Part shown: one piece after another, positions 39,488 to 62,348 of the stretch
Numbering within the stretch: position 1 is the stretch's first letter
How the letters are laid out: each line of letters starts with the position of its first letter
NCBI RefSeq assembly: GCF_016757965.1
Contig: NZ_JAEKIW010000001.1
Coordinates: 1 to 64,000, forward strand
Origin: Archaeoglobus neptunius
GTDB taxonomy: Archaea > Halobacteriota > Archaeoglobi > Archaeoglobales > Archaeoglobaceae
Direction: 5' to 3'
DNA length: 64,000 nt
Notes under the pieces: generated by a model
Told to the model about the DNA's origin: nothing
The model's database searches: none
The model's input: only the letters and a program-made list of their open reading frames with translations
Made by a program: the position numbers and the translations under genes

Positions 39488-40006
39488 AATCCTTTCAATC
39501 CCATTTTGGTCTGATTTCAACTCTGGCAGGAGCAGTGCTGCTCATAGTATTCTTTTACTCAACTTTCAATCCCACTTTGGTCTGATTTCAACATAACGTG
39601 CTCAACGACGGAATTAGCTGTTCAGTATCTCTTTCAATCCCACTTTGGTCTGATTTCAACAGAAGTATCTGAAGATAATCTTGATCGGCCTCGCTGGCGT
39701 CTTTCAATCCCACTTTGGTCTGATTTCAACCTGCGAACACTGTATTCAGCATCAGCCCGACGTAAACCTTTCAATCCCACTTTGGTCTGATTTCAACTAC
39801 TTTAGAAAAAATGTGGTTGAAATATCTTGAAAAGCTTTCAATCCCACCTTGGTCTGATTTCAACTTTAATCGGCGCATTTTCATGTTTCTTGAGATACTT
39901 CCTACTTTCAATCCCACCTTGGTCTGATTTCAACAAATTTCACGGAATATGTGATTCTAACGAACAATTAGACTTACTTTCAATCCCACCTTGGTCTGAT
40001 TTCAAC

Positions 40007-40041
40007 CTTGTATTGACTTCGAACAGCATCGGGAGGGCCTT
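40007..40041 (-). repeat. CRISPR spacer, first copy of a duplicated spacer
   Basis: The spacer between repeats 8 and 9 contains TATTGACTTCGAACAGCATC and the rest GGGAGGGCCTT. The same spacer occurs again at 40829-40862, one base shorter at its left end. All other spacers I compared differ from one another. Confidence 0.85.
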
Positions 40042-40828
40042 CTTTCAATCCCACCTTGGTCTGATTTCAACCTTGCAGAGTTAAAGCTGAGATTTGCATC
40101 AATTGCTTTCAATCCCACCTTGGTCTGATTTCAACTGTACAAAGACGGAGATATGGTTATTGCTGAAAACCTTTCAATCCCACCTTGGTCTGATTTCAAC
40201 TGCTTTTATATTTGTACAGATATCCACTACCACACTTCTTTCAATCCCACCTTGGTCTGATTTCAACAAGTTCGGCATTCCTGATGGCTTCTTCTCTTTT
40301 CTGTTTTAGCTCTCTTTCAATCCCACCTTGGTCTGATTTCAACTGCCGTTTCCGCTGTCGTCTGCAGTTTTGAATGTGATCCTTTCAATCCCACCTTGGT
40401 CTGATTTCAACTTGTGACCCTTGACGACTTCAGGAGAGTATGGTGACAGAGCTTTCAATCCCACCTTGGTCTGATTTCAACGTACATATGGGGAAGGCAG
40501 TTGCGGGTCAGGGACTGCGTATCTTTCAATCCCACCTTGGTCTGATTTCAACATCATAAAATGCGTCCTGATAGTCGGAGAACGATATATCCTCCTTTCA
40601 ATCCCACCTTGGTCTGATTTCAACCCCGATAACGTTCGTGACGTTGCTGTTGACGACAATACCTTTCAATCCCACCTTGGTCTGATTTCAACGGCTGATG
40701 CGTGATGGGCTGCTATGAATCGCAGTTGATCTTTCAATCCCACCTTGGTCTGATTTCAACAGAATGAACAGACATATGTTATATAAATGTTGGTTCACCT
40801 TTCAATCCCACCTTGGTCTGATTTCAAC

Positions 40829-40862
40829 TTGTATTGACTTCGAACAGCATCGGGAGGGCCTT
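40829..40862 (-). repeat. CRISPR spacer, second copy of a duplicated spacer
   Basis: The spacer between repeats 20 and 21 equals the one at 40007-40041 except for one missing C next to the left repeat. The two copies are 12 units apart, so they do not form a simple tandem duplication. Confidence 0.85.
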
Positions 40863-42539
40863 CTTTCAATCCCACCTTGGTCTGATTTCAACTGGGAGCT
40901 CGGACGAAGAAACTTTCGCTGATGGTCCTTTCAATCCCACCTTGGTCTGATTTCAACGAAAATGAAGAACAAAGAAGAGTCTCAGGTAAGAAAACTTTCA
41001 ATCCCACCTTGGTCTGATTTCAACTTACCTCTATTGCTTCCCTCTTCAAAGCTCTGTATCTCCTTTCAATCCCACCTTGGTCTGATTTCAACACGAGCTT
41101 CGGCCTCGCAACGGGGAAGAGCTTTGCAAGGCTGCCAGCTTTCAATCCCACCTTGGTCTGATTTCAACGGAAAAGGCATTGTCGTTAAGAAAGTTCATGT
41201 GGAAGGTCCTAAGCAACTCTTTCAATCCCACCTTGGTCTGATTTCAACAGCCACTGATTGTATATGTCAAACTCCCTCAAAATCTTTCAATCCCACCTTG
41301 GTCTGATTTCAACAGATATATCAAAGAAGTCAATATGAGAATGCTAAGCTTTCAATCCCACCTTGGTCTGATTTCAACTCCAAATAGACTAGTATCTGTA
41401 TCTCTCAATAAAAACTTTCAATCCCACCTTGGTCTGATTTCAACCGGTATTAACGTTAAATGTCAAAAATGCGGCTATACACTTTCAATCCCACCTTGGT
41501 CTGATTTCAACTCGTCAGTCATGCGGTCTCATGGTTCGCAAAAGAGTGGGCTTTCAATCCCACCTTGGTCTGATTTCAACAGGCGTTACCGCCTCTATCT
41601 ACCATCTCTCCGGTCATTGCTTTCAATCCCACCTTGGTCTGATTTCAACAGTACCAGTAATCTATGTTGTAGTCCGTTGCATTCTTCCTTTCAATCCCAC
41701 CTTGGTCTGATTTCAACGGTGGCTCCTCGCCGCAGCGCCTGTAGAGGCTATAATCCTTTCAATCCCACCTTGGTCTGATTTCAACAGATTAGTATAAGTT
41801 CTAATGATTTGTATGCTAAATGCTTTCAATCCCACCTTGGTCTGATTTCAACTTTCTTAGACTCTGCAGTGTATTCGCTGTATCTCGACAACTTTCAATC
41901 CCACCTTGGTCTGATTTCAACCCTGACGAGCTGGCCTATCATTGTGTTCACCATCTCCCTTTCAATCCCACCTTGGTCTGATTTCAACGTATATCAGAAA
42001 GATAACGGAACATTAAAGGTATCATTCTTTCAATCCCACCTTGGTCTGATTTCAACTATCCTATCAGCTCTTGCGGTGTTTAACATTGCAAATCCTTTCA
42101 ATCCCACCTTGGTCTGATTTCAACACATGAGCTTCGTGATGTGGATTGCTGATGTTGTTAGGGGGCGTGCTTTCAATCCCACCTTGGTCTGATTTCAACA
42201 AAAGATTACGCAGCCTCGCAAAGTCATTTCTGAACTCTTCTTTCAATCCCACCTTGGTCTGATTTCAACCGTTTACATTTGTTGTTATTGTGGGAATCAT
42301 ATCCCTCCTTTCAATCCCACCTTGGTCTGATTTCAACATTCGTCGCAGAATAAATTTCATAATACAGATAAAACTTTCAATCCCACCTTGGTCTGATTTC
42401 AACCTGCTGCACTGCTTCGGCAGTTCTGGTGGAACGAGTTACTTTCAATCCCACCTTGGTCTGATTTCAACTAGCTCATCTTTATCTTTCCATCCTTTGT
42501 GAATGCCTTCTTTCAATCCCACCTTGGTCTGATTTCAAC

Positions 42540-43030
42540 CTCTGGTAATATTTCTTTCATTTCTAATTTAAAGCTTTCTCAACCCTTCTTTAGTTTATAT
42601 ACTGTCGTAAATCCCCAGAGTTGCAGACCATTTATAAAGATATGCGACTTTTATTCTGGAGATTTATTTCAAATTGGACGAACCAGATCACATTTTAAGG
42701 AAATTAAAGGTGAATCGGCGTGATTATACCATTAAATAAAATTTTCGCCAGCAGGTTTTAAAAACGAAGGAAGTAAAAATTAAAAGTTTATGCTATTAAA
42801 AATTAAAAATAATTTGATTTACGACGGCCATACACTTAAGAAAATACTGAAATTTGACCATAGCAGCTCTTATTTTCGGATTAAAGATGATTTGGCAAGC
42901 GTGACTGACAGCTAACCCATAACATTTCATCCGGTATCTTCCGGCAACAACGGCAGTTGACGTTACTGAACATTGATAAATTTGAAGCCTTTCCAAATGT
43001 TTTTAAAGTAGTGGGGATACTTTCTCTCCG
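42540..43030 (-). promoter_or_regulatory. CRISPR leader and AT-rich intergenic region
   Basis: This stretch of 491 bases without a gene follows the newest end of the array. It is AT-rich. On the minus strand AGTATATAAA (42594-42603 region) forms a good TATA box about 55 bases upstream of the first repeat, so pre-crRNA would start about 30 bases before it. A 10-base inverted repeat, GTCGTAAATC (42604-42613) and GATTTACGAC (42816-42825), brackets the middle of the region. On the plus strand TTTTTAAAG near 43000 is the likely promoter of the next gene. No reading frame looks coding. Confidence 0.7.
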
Positions 43031-53489: not shown

Positions 53490-54735
53490 TGATACGGACA
53501 GCAGCAGGGGGATGTGCACAACGTATCTCGCAACTCTCATCATGGAGAGAGTTGAGAGTGAGCTGGGGAGAGTTGAGGGGTTCCCAAGGCTTATAAGACT
53601 TAACCCCACAATTCCGTACAAAACGAGAGGGAATGGTGCGGTAAGCTTTCTTGTGGACGTTGAGGACAGGGAAGATCTTATGGAGGTCGTAAATGAGGTG
53701 GTTCTTGAACATGCAATGATTGAGGACGAGAACACAGATCCCGGTGTGGTTTTTGTCGACGATGATCTGGCACTTAAGCTGAAGAGCTTTGCAGACAGGG
53801 CCATGAAAGACGTCGTAATGCTTGATGAAGCTCTTTTCCTGATCGGAAAGTATTTCATCCCGCATCTTAAGTACAAAAAAGGAAGGGGATTGATTGGAGC
53901 GCTTGCTGCAGTGGGTGCAGAGTTGAATGACCATACGCTTGAGCTAATAGCGTACCGGTATCCAGAAAAGTTCGGAACTGAGAGAGAGTACGATGAAGAA
54001 AGTTTCTTCGATATGGATTTTGAGCTGTATCCCCTGACCTTCGACAATGTTGACTGGTGTAATGAAAAGGTTGTCTGCATTCCAAACACACCGTGTCCTG
54101 TGCTTTACGGATTGAGAGGGGAGAGCGTAGAGGCTCTCTACGATGCACTCGACATGATCAGAACCGAACCCTATGACAGAAAAATGATCTTTATAACAAA
54201 TCATGCAACAGACATGCACATTATAGATACGGACAGGATCAGCATAACAGGGCTTGAGAACTATCGCTCATATAAGGTGACGGGTAGAGTTACGGGAGAA
54301 CCCTATGACATCGAGGGGGGTCATGTATTCTTCGAAATTGACACCAGGTTTGGTGAGATTAAATGTGCAGCCTTTGAGCCAACCAAGCAGTTCAGAAACA
54401 TAATCAGACAGCTCAGACCCGGAGATGAGGTTGAGGTTTACGGATCGATGAAAAAGGATACCATCAATCTTGAGAAGATCAGGATCGTGAAACTGGCCAA
54501 GGTGTATGTTGAGAGAAACCCAATCTGCGCCATCTGCGGAAAAAGGATGGAGTCTGCAGGAAAAGGACAGGGATTCAGATGCAGAAAATGCAAAACAAGG
54601 GCGTCGCGAAAGGTTAAGGAGCTACTAAGTAGAGAGATCGAAACAGGATTTTATGAAGTTCCACCTTCTGCAAGAAGACACCTTTCTAGGCCGCTTATCA
54701 GGATGGATGGTGATAAAAGACACATTTTCCGATAA
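53467..54735 (+). CDS. tiaS: tRNA(Ile2) 2-agmatinylcytidine synthetase TiaS
   Basis: TiaS attaches agmatine to C34 of tRNA-Ile(CAU) so that it reads AUA codons. The 422-residue protein starts with the typical MRVWVGIDDTDSSRGMCTTY, has the TCKD-like region and FLD domain in the first 270 residues, an OB fold (about 275-350: SYKVTGRVTGEPYDI-like YKVTGRVTGEPYDIEGGHV) and a C-terminal zinc ribbon (PICAICGKRM and FRCRKCKTRA). All domains are there. It overlaps the translin gene. Confidence 0.94.
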   Translation: MRVWVGIDDTDSSRGMCTTYLATLIMERVESELGRVEGFPRLIRLNPTIPYKTRGNGAVSFLVDVEDREDLMEVVNEVVLEHAMIEDENTDPGVVFVDDDLALKLKSFADRAMKDVVMLDEALFLIGKYFIPHLKYKKGRGLIGALAAVGAELNDHTLELIAYRYPEKFGTEREYDEESFFDMDFELYPLTFDNVDWCNEKVVCIPNTPCPVLYGLRGESVEALYDALDMIRTEPYDRKMIFITNHATDMHIIDTDRISITGLENYRSYKVTGRVTGEPYDIEGGHVFFEIDTRFGEIKCAAFEPTKQFRNIIRQLRPGDEVEVYGSMKKDTINLEKIRIVKLAKVYVERNPICAICGKRMESAGKGQGFRCRKCKTRASRKVKELLSREIETGFYEVPPSARRHLSRPLIRMDGDKRHIFR

Positions 54736-54765
54736 GGTTTTAATTCCCCGGATGTAGGAACTTCG

Positions 54766-56262
54766 ATGTCCGATAATATCCTCAAGAGCTGGATAGCCTT
54801 CCTTCCTGTAAGTGCCGGACTGTTTATGGTTCTGCTGGATGTGAGCGTTCTGAACGTTGCCCTCCCGAGAATTGCAGAGGACTTCAGGGCTACAATGTCG
54901 GATCTCCAATGGATAATGAATGCATACACCCTTACCATGGTTGTTCTTCTGGTCATCACCGGCAGAATAGGAGATATGGTAAGGAGAGATCGGTTTTTCA
55001 TCTTTGGGATGGCAATATTCACACTGGGCAGTTTTCTGTGCGCACAATCGTGGAATACTCAGTCGATTATCGCCTTCAGAGCCCTGCAGGCTGTTGGCGG
55101 AACAATACTCAGCGGAAATACTCTTGCCATCGCAGCAGAGCTGTTTCCTCCCGGTAAAAGGGGAGAAGTCATGGGACTCAATGCCATTTTAATAGCGTCG
55201 AGCTTTACACTCGGTCCGATTATTGGTGGATGGCTGACAACGAACTTTAGCTGGCACTGGGTGTTCTACATCAACGTTCCAATTGGGATCATTTCCATAA
55301 TCGGAGCGTGGTTCCTTCTTCCCCCACTGGGTGGTAAGGAAAAGGTACCTGTGGATCTGCTTGGGGCGGCTCTGCTATCGATCGGATTGGGGGCTCTAAC
55401 TCTTGGAATTATCAAGGGTCAGGACTGGGGATGGACGAATCAGAAGACCATATCATGCTTTATTGTGGCTATCCCATACCTAATCGCCTTTATTATGAGG
55501 GAAATAACCTATGAGTATCCTATGCTGGATTTAAGTCTTTTTAAAATCAGAAATTTCAGCGTATGCATGGCGGCCACACCCATTTTATTTTTTGGCATGT
55601 CTGCATCTCTGTTCGTCATCCCCTACTTTTTACAGGGTCTGAAATTTCTCAGTGCTGAGGATTCGGGATACTGGATGGTCGCCATACCTATCATGAATAC
55701 ACTCGTTGCACCGATTTCGGGGAGACTGAGCGATAGGATAAATCCGAAGTATCTAATGACACTCGGTCCAATTCTTTTTGCTGTCGGTCTGTATAATCTG
55801 ACCCACATCTACCTCGATATTGGCTACTGGGAATTCTTTGCCCTCATAGCGCCAATGGGTCTTGGAATGGGATTGCTCATGTCCCCCTCATTCAACGTGA
55901 TGATCTCTTCAGTCCCCATTGAGAAGGTGGGTATGGCCAATGGAACTATCAGGTCAATGAACACTCTGGCGCAGGCCATGGGTGTGGCTGTTGGCGGTGT
56001 TCTTCTCACTGCCAGAATGAAAGAGTGGATTCCGGGTTATGCAAATCAGGTTCCGGATCCCGGTACCATGAGAATACTGCTGAACTATGCAAGATACGGA
56101 TATCCGGCACCGCTAATTGCCATGGTCGAGGGCTTCATTGACAGCATGCAGCACGTCTTCACAATCATGGTGCTGTTTCCGCTGATAACTGCAGTCATAA
56201 TAGCAGTATTCCTGAAGGGTGGTGAACACCTGAGCAGAGTGAGAACCGCAACAGCTTATTAA
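54766..56262 (+). CDS. MFS drug-efflux-type transporter (DHA2, 14 helices)
   Basis: The 498-residue protein has about 14 membrane helices, as in DHA2 multidrug:H+ antiporters. Typical motifs are the beginning LLDVSVLNVALPRIAEDF, motif A-like GRIGDMVRRDRFF, motif C-like SFTLGPIIGGWL and INVPIGI after helix 5. The substrate is unknown. It follows tiaS by 30 bases but codes for an unrelated function. Confidence 0.9.
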   Translation: MSDNILKSWIAFLPVSAGLFMVLLDVSVLNVALPRIAEDFRATMSDLQWIMNAYTLTMVVLLVITGRIGDMVRRDRFFIFGMAIFTLGSFLCAQSWNTQSIIAFRALQAVGGTILSGNTLAIAAELFPPGKRGEVMGLNAILIASSFTLGPIIGGWLTTNFSWHWVFYINVPIGIISIIGAWFLLPPLGGKEKVPVDLLGAALLSIGLGALTLGIIKGQDWGWTNQKTISCFIVAIPYLIAFIMREITYEYPMLDLSLFKIRNFSVCMAATPILFFGMSASLFVIPYFLQGLKFLSAEDSGYWMVAIPIMNTLVAPISGRLSDRINPKYLMTLGPILFAVGLYNLTHIYLDIGYWEFFALIAPMGLGMGLLMSPSFNVMISSVPIEKVGMANGTIRSMNTLAQAMGVAVGGVLLTARMKEWIPGYANQVPDPGTMRILLNYARYGYPAPLIAMVEGFIDSMQHVFTIMVLFPLITAVIIAVFLKGGEHLSRVRTATAY

Positions 56263-56280
56263 AAAATTTTTAAAAAAGCA

Positions 56281-56844
56281 TCATTCTGAATAGGCTATGA
56301 GGACTGTATCGCCGTCGTCTGCTACCTCCTGCGGTGCAACATTGTATCCGTACTTCCAGCTCCAGCCCGGATTAGCGTCGATGTCCGGTCCACCGGCTGC
56401 CAGGTAAGCCGCCCAGGCCAGCTCACTGCAGTAGTAGCTGTCTCCATAGACCTCCTTGCCTCCAACGTAGGTTAGCCATTTGTAATCGTATGGTTTGCCA
56501 ACCTGTTTTAGGGCAAACTCTATTGCAGCCCGTCTTACGCTGTCTGTTGTTTTAACCCGGTAGATAGCTGCTTCGTAGGCTTTGTGGACGTTTGTTACCG
56601 GATTCACTACAACCCCATCTTCTGTGGCCTCCACGATTTTTCCATCTCCGATGTAAATTGCTACATGTGTCCAGTGTCCCGGGATTAGCAAGGCGAATTT
56701 CGGATTGTACTCCAGAATTAAATCACCCGGCTGCAGTTTACTCAAATCCAGATTGTTTCCGCTGTCACCAATCCAGAAAGCCGACACGGGTGTCAGAAAA
56801 ATCACAAACAGGACTCCGGCAAGTAAAAGCTTTCGTCCCTCCAC
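56281..56844 (-). CDS. Secreted YiiX/NlpC-P60-like papain-fold protein
   Basis: The 187-residue protein has a signal peptide (about 1-22) and a permuted papain-like domain of the YaeF/YiiX type: LQPGDLILEY at the start, H60 in GHWTHVAIYIGDG, and C139 in SYYCSELAWAAY. The order His before Cys is the mark of the permuted group. Such enzymes hydrolyse amide or ester bonds of lipids or peptides. It would act outside the cell. The substrate is unknown. Confidence 0.82.
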   Translation of the reverse strand: MEGRKLLLAGVLFVIFLTPVSAFWIGDSGNNLDLSKLQPGDLILEYNPKFALLIPGHWTHVAIYIGDGKIVEATEDGVVVNPVTNVHKAYEAAIYRVKTTDSVRRAAIEFALKQVGKPYDYKWLTYVGGKEVYGDSYYCSELAWAAYLAAGGPDIDANPGWSWKYGYNVAPQEVADDGDTVLIAYSE

Positions 56845-56861
56845 GGTTCAGCACCTCCTAA

Positions 56862-57133
56862 TTAATGTTGTTAATCTGCATAATAATTTCTATAAAAATT
56901 TTTCGTTATGAAATTGGGAATGTCAGACCGGATTAACCGGAACCTTCGGGAACGTACTTCTAGCCCGGCTGACATCTTTTTGCAGCCCGGGCTCCAGAAG
57001 GATACTCTTGCACACTGACACATCCATAACAAACTATAAACCTGGCTGAGAGCTGCTGGATGTGGATCCACAGTCCGGAAATATCATAACAGAGCTACCG
57101 CAAACTCAGCTACTTTTTTATTCTTTCATGTAG
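56862..57133. ncRNA. Gene-free region with a possible structured RNA
   Basis: No convincing protein gene is seen in this 270-base gap. Within AT-rich sequence there is a GC-rich patch that can fold: ATGTCAG (56920-56926), bulged A, CCGG (56928-56931) pairs with CCGG (56965-56968) and CTGACAT (56969-56975). Inside it is a CC-TTCG-GG tetraloop hairpin. A 10-base palindrome, AGCCCGGGCT, follows at 56984-56993. In a hyperthermophile such GC islands often mark structured RNA. Strand and extent are unknown. Confidence 0.35.
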
Positions 57134-57151
57134 CATGATGTACTTTGCTTT

Positions 57152-57307
57152 ATTACTCCACTTGAAAAGATTGCAAGAGATGTTGAAGACCTCAAGAAGA
57201 AGATCGATTATCTAATAGAGGTCATCGAGAGCGAAAAGAAAAAGAACCTCATCGAAGATATGATGAGAATAGAGGAAGAAGAGGAGTTTGTGGAGCTGAA
57301 ATTTTGA
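57152..57307 (+). pseudogene. RelB-like antitoxin without a normal start codon
   Basis: The frame reads ITPLEKIARDVEDLKKKIDY and continues as a charged helix ending in EEEEEFVELKF and TGA at 57305-57307. It is open from 57134 but has no ATG, GTG or TTG before the conserved part; ATT 57152 sits where the start codon of relatives would be expected. It overlaps the RelE start by TTGA. Either it uses ATT as a rare start or it has lost its start codon. The frame is thus a probable antitoxin of doubtful expression. Confidence 0.5.
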
Positions 57308-57567
57308 GATATAAAGTACTAATCAGCAAAAAAGCACTTGAGTTTATCGACTCCCTACCTGAAAAGAGTCAGGGGATAATAAAAGACAAACTTAGCAGTC
57401 TTGTTAACAGCCCATACCCCGGGAAAAGGGGAGATAAAAAGAAGCTAAAGCTTCCAAGCTACGAGTTATACAGAATGCATATTGCAAGAAGCTACACAGC
57501 TTTTTGCAGAATCTATGAAGATGAGAAAGTTGTTAAGATTCTCGACATCATGACGGTTGAAATGTAG
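57304..57567 (+). CDS. RelE/ParE-type toxin
   Basis: The 87-residue protein is a RelE-superfamily toxin, probably an mRNA interferase: MRYKVLISKKALEFIDSLPE at the start, a helix pair, then LPSYELYRMHIARSYTAFCR and VVKILDIMTVEM. Full length, with basic residues on the central strands. The start is TTG 57304, in a 4-base overlap with the antitoxin frame. If the antitoxin is not made, toxin activity would be dangerous to the cell, so it may be weak or the antitoxin may use ATT. Confidence 0.75.
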   Translation: MRYKVLISKKALEFIDSLPEKSQGIIKDKLSSLVNSPYPGKRGDKKKLKLPSYELYRMHIARSYTAFCRIYEDEKVVKILDIMTVEM

Positions 57568-57576
57568 TTCACTTTC

Positions 57577-58835
57577 ATGGATAAGGTAACGAGAAGAAAC
57601 TTTCTTAGAAGGTCTCTTCTCACAACAGCCTTTTTTCTTGGCTTACATTTTGAAGGTTGCTCAGAACCGTGTGAATCGATGCGTGTTACACCAACACCGC
57701 ACACGCCACAAACACCCAAAAACACACCATACAACATAGACACCAAAATAACCCAAACTATAGACAAGACATAAGGAAACATAGTTACAATCCTCGAAGT
57801 CTACACACCCCCAAAAACCAGAAATAAGAATCACAAGCCCAGACTATACCGAGCTCGCAACCAAGAGCGCCGACTGGTACATAACCCTAACCAAACAGGG
57901 AAAAACATTCTTCCCGGTCGACGACCACACCCTACAACAAAAATTCTCTAAACCAGAAGACAGGGCCCCCGCACTACAACTACTCGCCGAGACACCCCTC
58001 AAGACATGGACCACCAACTACAAAGACTTCCTCTACGGCTTCCATGCAGCACGAGCATTCTGGAACCACCACGTACCACTAGCAAGACGAGTAGCCGACC
58101 TAGCACTAGAAACATGGCCAATGTGGAACAACAAGAAAAACATGCTCTGGAGCTATTACATAATGCTCGGAGACGCTGCAGGACACGGAGAACTACACAG
58201 TATAGCATTTCTACTGGGAATGGACGACATAGACACCAAAGAAGACTACGGGCAACATCCAATTTTAAAACTCATAAACAGCAACCGCAAGAGCCCCGAC
58301 ATGGAAAAAGAATACTACCAAAAATACCCCGACGCGCCCACCAACATACTATCCAAAAACTCGAAAGAATGGAGAGGCAACAAGCTCGTAAAGCGTGGCA
58401 GCATACGCGGACATGTACACCCACAAGGTAGGATGACCCAAAAAACCATACAGCGAGAGAGAAATCTATGAAGGGCTCAACCCAGCAATAGCCGCCGCGA
58501 CAGGACTACCATGGACCTACGAGTACACGGGCGTGTTCAGATCCGAGACGGCCGTGACAATAAGCGACAAAGCCGCCAGCCTTCTCAAACAAAAATATGG
58601 GGACGACCTCGCGATAGGACCAGCCAACCTGGTCGGGCCCTTCCTCTCCAAGAGCGCGGCCAGAAAAGACTGGGAAAAAGCAAAACAAGTAGGAGGATAC
58701 CCCAGCGGGCCACTACCAGAAAAACCCAAAATAGCCATCCGATGGCCCAGGCACACACAAAGAGAACTCCCAATAACAACAAACCAGTACAACCAGAAAC
58801 AACACACCGACGGATACATCATCGCGAGACTATGA
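57577..58835 (+). pseudogene. Decayed Tat-signal protein gene of foreign composition
   Basis: Segment A (57577-57774) encodes a Tat signal with lipobox (VTRRNFLRRSLLTTAFFLGL, then a Cys) and a Pro/Thr linker, and ends in TAA. Segment B (about 57818-58471, second frame) and C (about 58446-58835, third frame) continue one protein of about 400 residues. The frame changes at C5A5 (57808-57817) and A6 (58440-58445) runs; taking one base from each run joins B to its neighbours. From about 57685 on, the plus strand is rich in C and A and poor in T, unlike any neighbour. I recognise no family (e.g. HGELHSIAFLLGMDD, AIGPANLVGPFLSKS). It could be a decayed acquired gene, or hold sequencing errors at homopolymers. 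Confidence 0.65.
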
Positions 58836-58960
58836 AACCCCGAAGCCGGCAATGCAAGGATTGTAGATTACGTCATCAGAATTTTAACTCAATCTTGTTG
58901 TTAAATCCTGCTAACCCTCAAATCATGGATAACCTTTTTATCTTTCCCAACAAAGATAGC

Positions 58961-59179
58961 ATGATGGGTGAAGCAATTGAACTTCTCCGCAGAATCGAGA
59001 ACAAGCTCGAAGAAATTGACAGAAGGCTGAGAAGAATTGAGGAAGAGCTTTTTGATGAGCTGAGTGAGGAGGAATTAAAAGAGGTTAAGGAAATCCTTGA
59101 AGCCTGTAAAACAGGAAAGATGAAGACGTATTCGCTGGAAGAACTGAAAAAGGAGCTTGGAATCGAGGATGAAGTTTGA
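58961..59179 (+). CDS. RelB-like antitoxin
   Basis: This 72-residue protein is a helical antitoxin: MMGEAIELLRRIENKLEEID, then a charged coiled coil and the C-terminal TYSLEELKKELGIEDE, which resembles the toxin-binding tail of archaeal RelB proteins. A T-rich TATA-like box lies 20-25 bases before ATG 58961; an in-frame ATG at 58925 is less likely. It overlaps the toxin start by 11 bases. It is intact, whereas the toxin is not. Confidence 0.7.
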   Translation: MMGEAIELLRRIENKLEEIDRRLRRIEEELFDELSEEELKEVKEILEACKTGKMKTYSLEELKKELGIEDEV

Positions 59180-59422
59180 AGTCAGAATATCCGATATAGC
59201 GGCTAAGGACATCAAGAAGCTTGACAAGATCACGAGGGTCAGGATATACAAAACGATCAGAAAGCTTGAAGATCCCTTTTCTCTCGACATCAAAAAGATT
59301 GAGGACCATATTTAAGGGTCAGAGTCGGTAATTTCAGAATCATCATATAAATCGATTTCGAAAACCAGATTGTATGGATTGCCAAGGTTGACAAACGGGA
59401 AAGAGTTTACGACCGCCTATAA
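59169..59422 (+). pseudogene. RelE-type toxin, broken
   Basis: The frame starts MKFEVRISDIAAKDIKKLDK and runs to IKKIEDHI followed by TAA at 59313-59315. The rest of a RelE protein continues in another phase: RVRVGNFRII, then a stop, then IDFENQIVWIAKVDKRERVY and DRL. At least one frameshift and one nonsense or small deletion (at ATATAAATC, where relatives have YEI) separate the parts. The toxin should be inactive. The antitoxin gene just before it is intact. Confidence 0.7.
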
Positions 59423-59641
59423 CTCCCTCAGCTCCCTGAACAGCTGCATGAAGTAAACAACCATCAGCAAGCTTAACATGAGAGCGTGCTGGTATCCGCT
59501 CCTCAAAGCCAGGACCATTATCACCGCAATAACCCCAACCAGAAACAAAGGAAACAGCGTAACGCTCTCTTTCGGCAGCTTGAACCTCTCATTTTCAAAA
59601 CCGTAAGCCTGCAGGAACTCAACCAGCTTCTTGTTCTTCAA
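59417..59641 (-). CDS. Small membrane protein, unknown
   Basis: The 74-residue protein has a polar N-terminus (KNKKLVEFLQAYGFENERFK), two membrane helices (about 28-45 and 50-66) and a short charged tail. Start is TTG 59641 with AAAGGAAAG upstream. No family recognised. It overlaps the end of the broken toxin by six bases. Codon use looks native. Confidence 0.5.
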   Translation of the reverse strand: MKNKKLVEFLQAYGFENERFKLPKESVTLFPLFLVGVIAVIMVLALRSGYQHALMLSLLMVVYFMQLFRELREL

Positions 59642-59684
59642 AGCTTTCCTTTTGTTCTTAAATGTACTAAAGACATCACAGATT

Positions 59685-60284
59685 TCACTGTTTTGCGATT
59701 CGATTCAAAATCATTTTAATACGATTCAAAAGTTCTGATATATACCCAAGTGTTTCATTAATGTCTGGGAAATAGTCACTCGGGTGTGCGCACTCATTCC
59801 TTTTGCTTAGCAACCCATGTAAAACTTTCATTTCACTTTTTCTCAAAATTTCAATATCTTTTACTGCCTCTATTATCTGGTAATCTGGATACTTCTCTCT
59901 TAATTCTTCTTTGCTTGATACTTTCCAATTTGGCCTTTTTTCTTTGAGTTTTTGGAAATTCTTCAGAAGTAGCTCGTGAATGAAGTCTATAAAACCTGCC
60001 CATGCGAGCACGTGTGCTGCTCTGAAAAGCCCGTTTTCGACACATCTCAGAGCTTCTCTAAATAGCTCATCTTGTTCGAGCGATAGACCGTTTAATTCAC
60101 TATAACTTTCATTTAATTTTACAACTCGTGATTTTTCAGCACTTTCGTATATGCCGAGTATCTTATGGGCAATTATTTCAAATTTCTTCGAATTTTTAAC
60201 AAATTCCTCAATTGTGCTTATTTCATTCTGAAAGCAGATTTCTTTTAAGTGAACGAAACAATTTGTCGTATACCTCCTCATCAT
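59685..60284 (-). CDS. HEPN-like protein, partner of DUF5343 gene
   Basis: This 199-residue helical protein has the RX4-6H signature of HEPN ribonucleases in [11 protein letters not shown] (near residue 166), in the usual place before the last helix. The middle part (about 75-120) has [20 protein letters not shown] and [13 protein letters not shown], as in HEPN-type abortive infection proteins. Its start lies 62 bases inside the end of the DUF5343 gene, in another frame, and I see no later start codon; this implies tight translational coupling. RNA cleavage is inferred from the motif. Confidence 0.65.
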
Positions 60285-61160: not shown

Positions 61161-62348
61161 GTGCTATACGATGTACTGGTAGGCACCTTACTGGGGATCG
61201 TGGCAGGGATAATTCCGGGTATACACAGCAACACGTTTGCCATTCTTGTGGCCATCAACTCAGAATACTTTGAGAACCCGGGAATTGTGATAGTATGCTC
61301 TTCGATAGCATATACAATTGCGGACATCATTCCTACAACCATTCTCGGCGTTCCGGATGAAGAAACGGTCATTGCAACTTTTCCAGTCCATCAGATGGTG
61401 ATGGAGGGGAGGGCCATGGAGGCTGTGACGTCGTCTGTGATTTCATCCTTTCTTTCTATCCTGATGGTCGTGCCTATGTACTTTACCGTTTCAGTAATAG
61501 CCTCCGAACAACGAATTCTAAAGCTCGTTACTCCCGCTGTGCTTGTTTTCACCTCTGTTTTTATGATTCTCAGCGAGAAATCGGATGAATTTGAGGGAAG
61601 TCTCGCTTCATGGAGGAAGAGATTCTATGCAACGCTCGTTTTTGCGGTTTCGGGTTTTGCTGGATACGTTGCATTCAGGAACATGCACCTTGCAGATGCA
61701 AATCCGGCCGGTTCTGTTCTTCTTCCACTACTTACAGGACTTTTTGGTGTCCCAGTTCTGCTACAATCTTCCAGTTCCTCCTTTCCTGATCAAATCAGAA
61801 AATTCTCTTTTCCTGATGTAAATCCAGTAGCACGCGGGTCTCTTGCTGGTTTTCTCGTTTCAATGTTTCCCGGCGTCAGCAGTGGTATCGCAACCTTAAT
61901 CGCTTCTGCAGGTGAAAGGGATAGAGAGGGATATATCGCAGCCATGAGTGCGGCCAACACATCAAATGCTGTGCTGAGCTTTTATATCTATATGGCTCTG
62001 GGGAAAACCAGGAGTGGTGCAGCGACTTCCTTAAAGAGACTGGGTTACATCCCTGATTTTTATGAAATCGCACTTCTTGTTGTGGTGGCCGGTCTAATTT
62101 CTCTGGTAGCCTCTCTGGTGATTGCATACATCGCTATGCCGTTGGTTTCCCGTGTAAACATGCAGTTTCTTTCAGTTTCAGTTTTCGGTTTTCTAATATA
62201 CGTCGTATATACCTTTACGGGGACTTTTGGCATTGTAGTTTTCTTCTCAGTCGTCCCCATCGGTCTTGCAGCTACCTTTCTGGAGATCAGGAGAGTGAAC
62301 TGCATGGGCAGCCTGATCATACCTGTTCTGCTTTTTTATCTCAGCTAG
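61161..62348 (+). CDS. TctA/DUF112-like membrane permease
   Basis: The 395-residue protein has about ten membrane helices in two related halves, each with a Pro-Gly motif: GIVAGIIPGIHSNT at about 12-25 and FLVSMFPGVSSGIATLI at about 233-249. This matches the TctA/DUF112 family, a single-protein relative of the tripartite tricarboxylate transporters. The substrate is unknown, and no solute-binding protein lies nearby. Start is GTG 61161, with TTAATATG about 25 bases upstream. The end overlaps the convergent methyltransferase by four bases. Confidence 0.82.
   Translation: MLYDVLVGTLLGIVAGIIPGIHSNTFAILVAINSEYFENPGIVIVCSSIAYTIADIIPTTILGVPDEETVIATFPVHQMVMEGRAMEAVTSSVISSFLSILMVVPMYFTVSVIASEQRILKLVTPAVLVFTSVFMILSEKSDEFEGSLASWRKRFYATLVFAVSGFAGYVAFRNMHLADANPAGSVLLPLLTGLFGVPVLLQSSSSSFPDQIRKFSFPDVNPVARGSLAGFLVSMFPGVSSGIATLIASAGERDREGYIAAMSAANTSNAVLSFYIYMALGKTRSGAATSLKRLGYIPDFYEIALLVVVAGLISLVASLVIAYIAMPLVSRVNMQFLSVSVFGFLIYVVYTFTGTFGIVVFFSVVPIGLAATFLEIRRVNCMGSLIIPVLLFYLS

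Follow-up and report, generated by a model that had tools for sequence, protein, structure and literature searches.

Organization of the array

The stretch of Archaeoglobus neptunius DNA analysed here, 64,000 nucleotides in length (contig NZ_JAEKIW010000001.1, positions 1 to 64,000; referred to as the window), contains 45 repeats of 30 nt at positions 39492-42539, given as read on the plus strand and separated by 44 spacers of 34-50 nt, which judged by sequence constitute an ordinary type I-B CRISPR array, one of two in A. neptunius. The features of the locus are the following, with spacers numbered from the leader and the second array being that of contig C14.

38696-39487, plus strand: gene encoding a xylose-isomerase-like TIM-barrel protein, which abuts the old end of the array; a flanking gene outside the CRISPR system
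39488-39491, no strand: trailer junction, the 4 nt between the stop codon of this neighbour and the terminal repeat, read directly
39492-39521, minus strand: leader-distal repeat, TT form (crRNA strand ...CCAAAATGGG...), from reading of the repeats
39563-39797, minus strand: repeats 2-5, CT form (crRNA strand ...CCAAAGTGGG...), from reading of the repeats
39835-42539, minus strand: repeats 6-45, CC form (crRNA strand ...CCAAGGTGGG...), from reading of the repeats
40007-40041, minus strand: spacer 37, 35 nt, the first 34 nt of which are common with spacer 25
40829-40862, minus strand: spacer 25, 34 nt, from the same protospacer as spacer 37
42338-42373, minus strand: spacer 3, the same as spacer 26 of the C14 array (61674-61710) and 1 nt shorter at the 3' end
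42540-42825, minus strand: leader, over the extent alignable to the C14 leader, from leader alignment

The sole variable sites among the 45 repeats are positions 13-14, where repeat 1 has the dinucleotide TT, repeats 2-5 have CT and repeats 6-45 have CC. On the crRNA strand the repeat reads GTTGAAATCAGACCAA-NN-TGGGATTGAAAG, with variation confined to NN, which counted from the leader is GG in 40 repeats, AG in four and AA in one (equal to CC, CT and TT). This block order is non-random, none of 100,000 shuffles of the repeats having reached so few runs, and the three-step succession described in an earlier, sequence-only reading of this DNA proved exact. The leader lies to the right of position 42539, where up to 286 nt can be aligned with leaders from other Archaeoglobus arrays, and repeat 1 is therefore the leader-distal unit of the array.

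Regarding the crRNA, it had been claimed that the substitutions alter its pairing potential; this does not agree with the predicted folds, since the four forms of the repeat have folding energies of -3.0, -3.0, -3.0 and -3.1 kcal/mol, the z-scores against shuffled sequences being near 0. In three of the four forms the variable bases are predicted to fall within the loop formed by a weak hairpin, and the CC form, at almost equal energy, has a most stable predicted shape unlike that of the other three.

Regarding the flanking genes, the three that were tested lie apart from arrays and from one another in most relatives, and no ancestral arrangement emerged from the gene order around the arrays there. 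Among the three array neighbours sought within A. neptunius, two were found on other contigs (C5 and C15) and the third had distant matches only, at 28-33% identity. In the genome G005 (2,178,400 bp), which is taken here to be A. fulgidus, the TIM-barrel gene lies about 4 kb from cas4-cas1-cas2, on the cas side of that array.

Second array and cas genes

The A. neptunius assembly comprises 2,115,826 bases in 32 contigs. Two CRISPR loci are given in the accessible part of the genome description of strain SE56 (PMC8322695), which is without mention of repeat variants. A genome-wide search at up to three mismatches yielded 132 repeats, 45 in the window and 87 on contig C14 (59884-65835), the C14 array being the only other array found in the genome with the window repeat. 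From its old end to the leader this array consists of two CC repeats, one CT repeat, 13 CC repeats and 71 CT repeats, and an 11-nt repeat remnant, read directly, is located 38 nt past the last full repeat. The two arrays switch at the same base in opposite directions, from CT to CC towards the leader in the window and from CC to CT on C14, and their make-up is reciprocal, with a CC head and a CT tail in the window and a CT head and a mostly CC tail on C14.

The sequence-only reading had taken the window blocks as a one-way record of two mutations, which dated two events within one array. Its first part, the copying of the leader-proximal repeat into ordered blocks, is supported, but its second part is not: on C14 the oldest repeats are CC and the youngest CT, so that the change in the genome's other array goes the opposite way to that in the window, and with such opposite orders a single one-way mutation series cannot describe both arrays. 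The same reading had named the fusion of repeats 1-5 from a separate array as the case that would overturn it. A separate, mostly CT array, a candidate for the kind of source named, is indeed present in the genome; the comparison covered one genome per species.

The C14 array adjoins cas4, cas1 and cas2, with the genes encoding Cas6, Cas8b1, Cas7, Cas5 and Cas3 further out, which is a type I-B set. As to the proposed comparison of the genome's cas1 and cas6 with the newer repeat form, a single cas1 was found in the whole A. neptunius genome, on C14, a cas6 is also located on C14, and the leader ends are identical between both arrays; the CT and CC forms thus appear, from these sequence features, to use one common adaptation machinery. 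A genome-wide search with the Pfam Cas6 model returned no matches, and this model also missed the Cas6 encoded on C14. The Cas3 gene on C14 (about 54250-56460; L034 14249-15999 and L021 3-461) is found in two reading frames, and its counterpart in S5B4_HD70 (G004; L024 1944-4175) is a single open frame of 744 codons. The newest C14 spacer (59914-59986) has a length of 73 nt, about twice the usual 37-38 nt.

A tail-to-tail placement of the two arrays, 41 kb apart and with an inversion between them, was suggested by an acyl-CoA dehydrogenase gene that apparently extended from the end of C14 into the start of the window. This link was rejected, firstly because the genome has two genes of this kind, both truncated at contig ends, and secondly because flank orthology with the genomes G006 and G005 joins C14 to C15 and C6 to the window contig. 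The cut genes are located at 1-121 of the window, 66741-67217 of C14, 2-430 of C6 and 60667-60786 of C15, the left edge of the window being one of the breaks. Their middles were absent among the matches listed, as expected if identical middles had collapsed in assembly.

It might also be supposed that the draft misjoined the two arrays, given that it is a short-read assembly (Illumina 2x150, SPAdes, 32 contigs, according to the accessible part of PMC8322695). However, exact stretches common to both arrays reach at most 36 nt around the window boundary, 33 nt around that of C14 and 59 nt at any place, the longest duplications within an array are 65 and 74 nt, and reads of 150 nt should span two units of about 68 nt. 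Because of the 36-nt maximum for exact stretches shared near the boundaries, such an artefact is considered very improbable.

Repeat forms in related genomes

Of 59 relatives searched for the repeat, nine carry it. The TT form is found in six of these nine, namely in both arrays of G005 and in S5B4_HD70, G026, G034, G032 and G039, which agrees with the statement of the sequence-only reading that the oldest form in the window is the one known from Archaeoglobus. The TC form is present in S5B11_HD70 (G001) and GB_MAG2_100 (G002), and the CT form in UBA230 (G007), whose array, orthologous to the cas-side array of A. neptunius, is CT in all 65 repeats within the contig. The NN dinucleotide therefore differs between species (TT, TC, CT and CC), the arrays of the relatives being uniform as far as read and A. 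neptunius alone being mixed.

Exact copies of the repeat in the nine relatives number 546, of which 441 lie within the arrays that were read and together with six variants make up 447 repeats in ten arrays. Each of these six departs from the majority of its own array without recurring in a neighbouring repeat, and in none of them is NN affected. Copied repeat steps thus look rare in this repeat family, with a base rate that comes from partly incomplete arrays: those of G026, G034 and G039 were read in part (44 of 71, 56 of 104 and 4 of 34 repeats, respectively), so that blocks at unread ends could be missed, and the contigs of UBA230 and G032 end within the arrays. In the array of GB_MAG2_100 (L023), the spacer block 32-33 recurs as 34-35.

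As TT is the commonest form in the relatives, the terminal repeat of the window array is probably an ancestral relic, although it is one unit only and a single C to T change is possible. Degenerate or variant terminal repeats are known (PMC4466440; PMC8047081, from the accessible parts of both), and the window array resembles such arrays in that its leader-distal repeat differs from the rest; unlike the arrays described there, its terminal repeat has one internal substitution matching the form of the genus and no 3' decay.

The diversity of NN in the genus bears on the possibility that the repeats mutated in place, from TT to CT to CC in the window and independently from CC to CT on C14, each change being copied to the later units. 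The blocks are clean, as this would predict, the occurrence of all four dinucleotides in the genus indicates that the positions tolerate C/T change, and copied variants have published precedent: in arrays of E. coli and Salmonella, 'stretches of conserved repeat variants' were read as duplication of the adjacent repeat (PMC2886076, accessible part). The copying of variant repeats as such is therefore already published there. The runs of identical variant repeats inside an array are common to those species and A. neptunius, but A. neptunius, unlike what the accessible part of that study describes, has two arrays with the same two variants in reverse order. In-place mutation would need opposite changes at one base in two arrays, against 447 repeats of relatives without a copied change, and would have to treat the lone CT unit of the C14 tail as a coincidental change of the very same base. 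It is regarded as possible, though doubtful.

Leaders and the cas module

The leaders of the window and C14 arrays have no mismatch in the 43 nt next to the repeat, while further out 47 of 251 alignment columns differ (19%, gaps counted); the chance of a mismatch-free run of this length beside the repeat is 0.0003. The two leaders of G005 are similar to each other in the same manner, with 45 mismatch-free nt and nine mismatches in the next 102 (chance 0.03). Between the leaders of C14 and UBA230, nine positions differ within the last 43 nt.

At 51 sites within 287 nt of the repeat the C14 leader matches only one of the window array and UBA230, and of these sites the inner ones are mostly like the window array and the outer ones mostly like UBA230. 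Sites were used only to 287 nt, the full list extending to 329, because the window leader no longer aligns beyond. When the breakpoint was left free, the best mosaic breakpoint fell between 147 and 153 nt from the repeat and was equalled by 6 of 20,000 permutations. A test of the same site pattern with a limit fixed at 107 nt gave a Fisher p of 0.00008, this limit having been picked after the sites were seen; its repetition with the free breakpoint left the odds of the explanations as they were. The C14 leader is the odd one out at four sites within 107 nt and at 15 sites at 108-287 nt. The C14 leader is thus a mosaic, the repeat-proximal part of which is common with the other array of the genome. 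Conversion or crossover close to the leader end would produce such a pattern, and selection for one integrase could add to it. Signs of exchange between the loci are therefore present in the mosaic C14 leader and the near-identical leader ends, with selection as a possible alternative: identical leader ends could instead reflect selection for one integrase, and the leaders of G005 show the same tendency.

Regarding the cas genes, cas6, the vapC-like gene, cas2, cas1 and cas4 of C14 have 90-95% DNA identity to UBA230, compared with 69-77% for five other genes, and hisD, which lies beside cas6, has 84%. The effector genes between cas6 and cas2 had no DNA match to UBA230, their protein matches being weak (26-42%). 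The high identity of the cas genes points to a transfer of the cas module between lineages, with which CT repeats could have travelled, and the conserved cas4-cas1-cas2 next to differing effector genes would correspond to modular exchange of the cas locus. Extended to the repeats, a transfer of this kind would mean that C14 once had a CC array of its own, whose leader side gave way, through recombination within the repeats, to cas4-cas1-cas2, the leader and CT repeats from a UBA230-like lineage, with a separate event behind the step in the window. The uniformly CT array of UBA230 and the high identity of the cas genes speak for this; however, the repeat-proximal C14 leader matches the window array and not UBA230, no spacer match was found between the C14 and UBA230 arrays, and the step in the window array is left unexplained, and this replacement is considered improbable. 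The block of C14 from 56530 to 59883 (L021 531-3884), comprising cas4-cas1-cas2 and the VapC-like gene, has about 92% DNA identity to Archaeoglobus sp. UBA230 (L022).

Spacers

Copies of a repeated protospacer in A. neptunius have the same start base and differ by 1 to 5 nt at the other end. Spacers 49, 65 and 66 of C14 also stem from one protospacer taken up repeatedly, and among these the identical neighbours 65 and 66 are the exception to the difference in length and could be a duplication. The differences in length suggest independent acquisition from one fixed end. One fixed spacer end is what a PAM would give.

To date the array by viruses, three repeated spacers were searched as exact patterns in viral_contigs and gave no matches, and no match was found for the whole window array in the phage collection. 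Self-targeting was not seen in the A. neptunius stretches compared, the best matches listed to the genome's own spacers being of 14 nt (E up to 0.05). In G005, one pair with the same start was found between two arrays (L030 spacer 20 and L031 spacer 19; 5 nt), and in a pair of G026 (L028 spacers 6 and 11) the start is shifted by one base.

Origin of the repeat blocks

The explanation towards which we lean is that the blocks represent the copied leader-proximal repeat and that at least one boundary came from recombination between the arrays. Two type I-B arrays would use one Cas4-Cas1-Cas2 adaptation set, and each acquisition would copy the leader-proximal repeat, as block structure and published precedent indicate, so that a variant at that place is multiplied into a block. 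The opposite CT/CC boundaries would then derive from recombination or gene conversion between the arrays, as against two independent opposite mutations at one base. In the simplest version, one CT and one CC array would have exchanged their tails inside the repeats, with 40 CC, four CT and the TT repeat in the window and 71 CT and 16 mostly CC repeats on C14 as the outcome; in a second version, conversion would have taken place at the leader end.

Several observations favour recombination over repeated mutation: the blocks run in opposite order, the two arrays have their leader ends in common, copied changes are rare in relatives, and there is the isolated CT unit, which is the third repeat from the C14 tail, the sole isolated variant in A. 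neptunius, and carries exactly the base of the other form. Since copied steps look rare in relatives, the presence of such steps at the same base in both A. neptunius arrays supports exchange, and since the cas-side array of UBA230 is all CT, CT would be the state expected beside the cas genes, where the CC tail of C14 looks foreign. The protospacer common to the CC zone of the window and the CT zone of C14 suggests that CT and CC were both leader-proximal in the same era. Against exchange, the boundaries offer no more than 36 nt of homology, comparison of the spacers of both arrays showed no sharing at the block boundaries, and recurrent C/T change is evidently tolerated at both variable positions, because species differ there. 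We infer the exchange as well as its direction and place, whereas the block orders, the single cas1 and the near-identical leader ends are directly observed.

A related mechanism, here considered unlikely, is concerted evolution at the integration ends, in which conversion would repeatedly move the leader end and first repeat between the arrays, the variants flipping and each flip being kept as a block. If this is true, the history of inter-array conversion could be read off the blocks against the order of the spacers.

Overall the repeat blocks look more like traces of inter-array exchange than like a one-way mutation record, and before the repeat variants of one array are used as a mutation clock, the genome's other arrays should be consulted. 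Rearrangement by recombination between CRISPR arrays has a parallel in Thermotoga, where chromosomal recombination was credited to CRISPR arrays (PMC5637354, accessible part, citing DeBoy 2006); unlike the case described there, the exchange in A. neptunius is deduced from repeat variants in one strain and not from a comparison of rearranged with unrearranged strains. If the exchange is true, the array pair would offer a natural experiment, on a small scale, on the frequency with which CRISPR arrays swap ends, and also on the way in which repeat and leader are kept compatible with one Cas1-Cas2.
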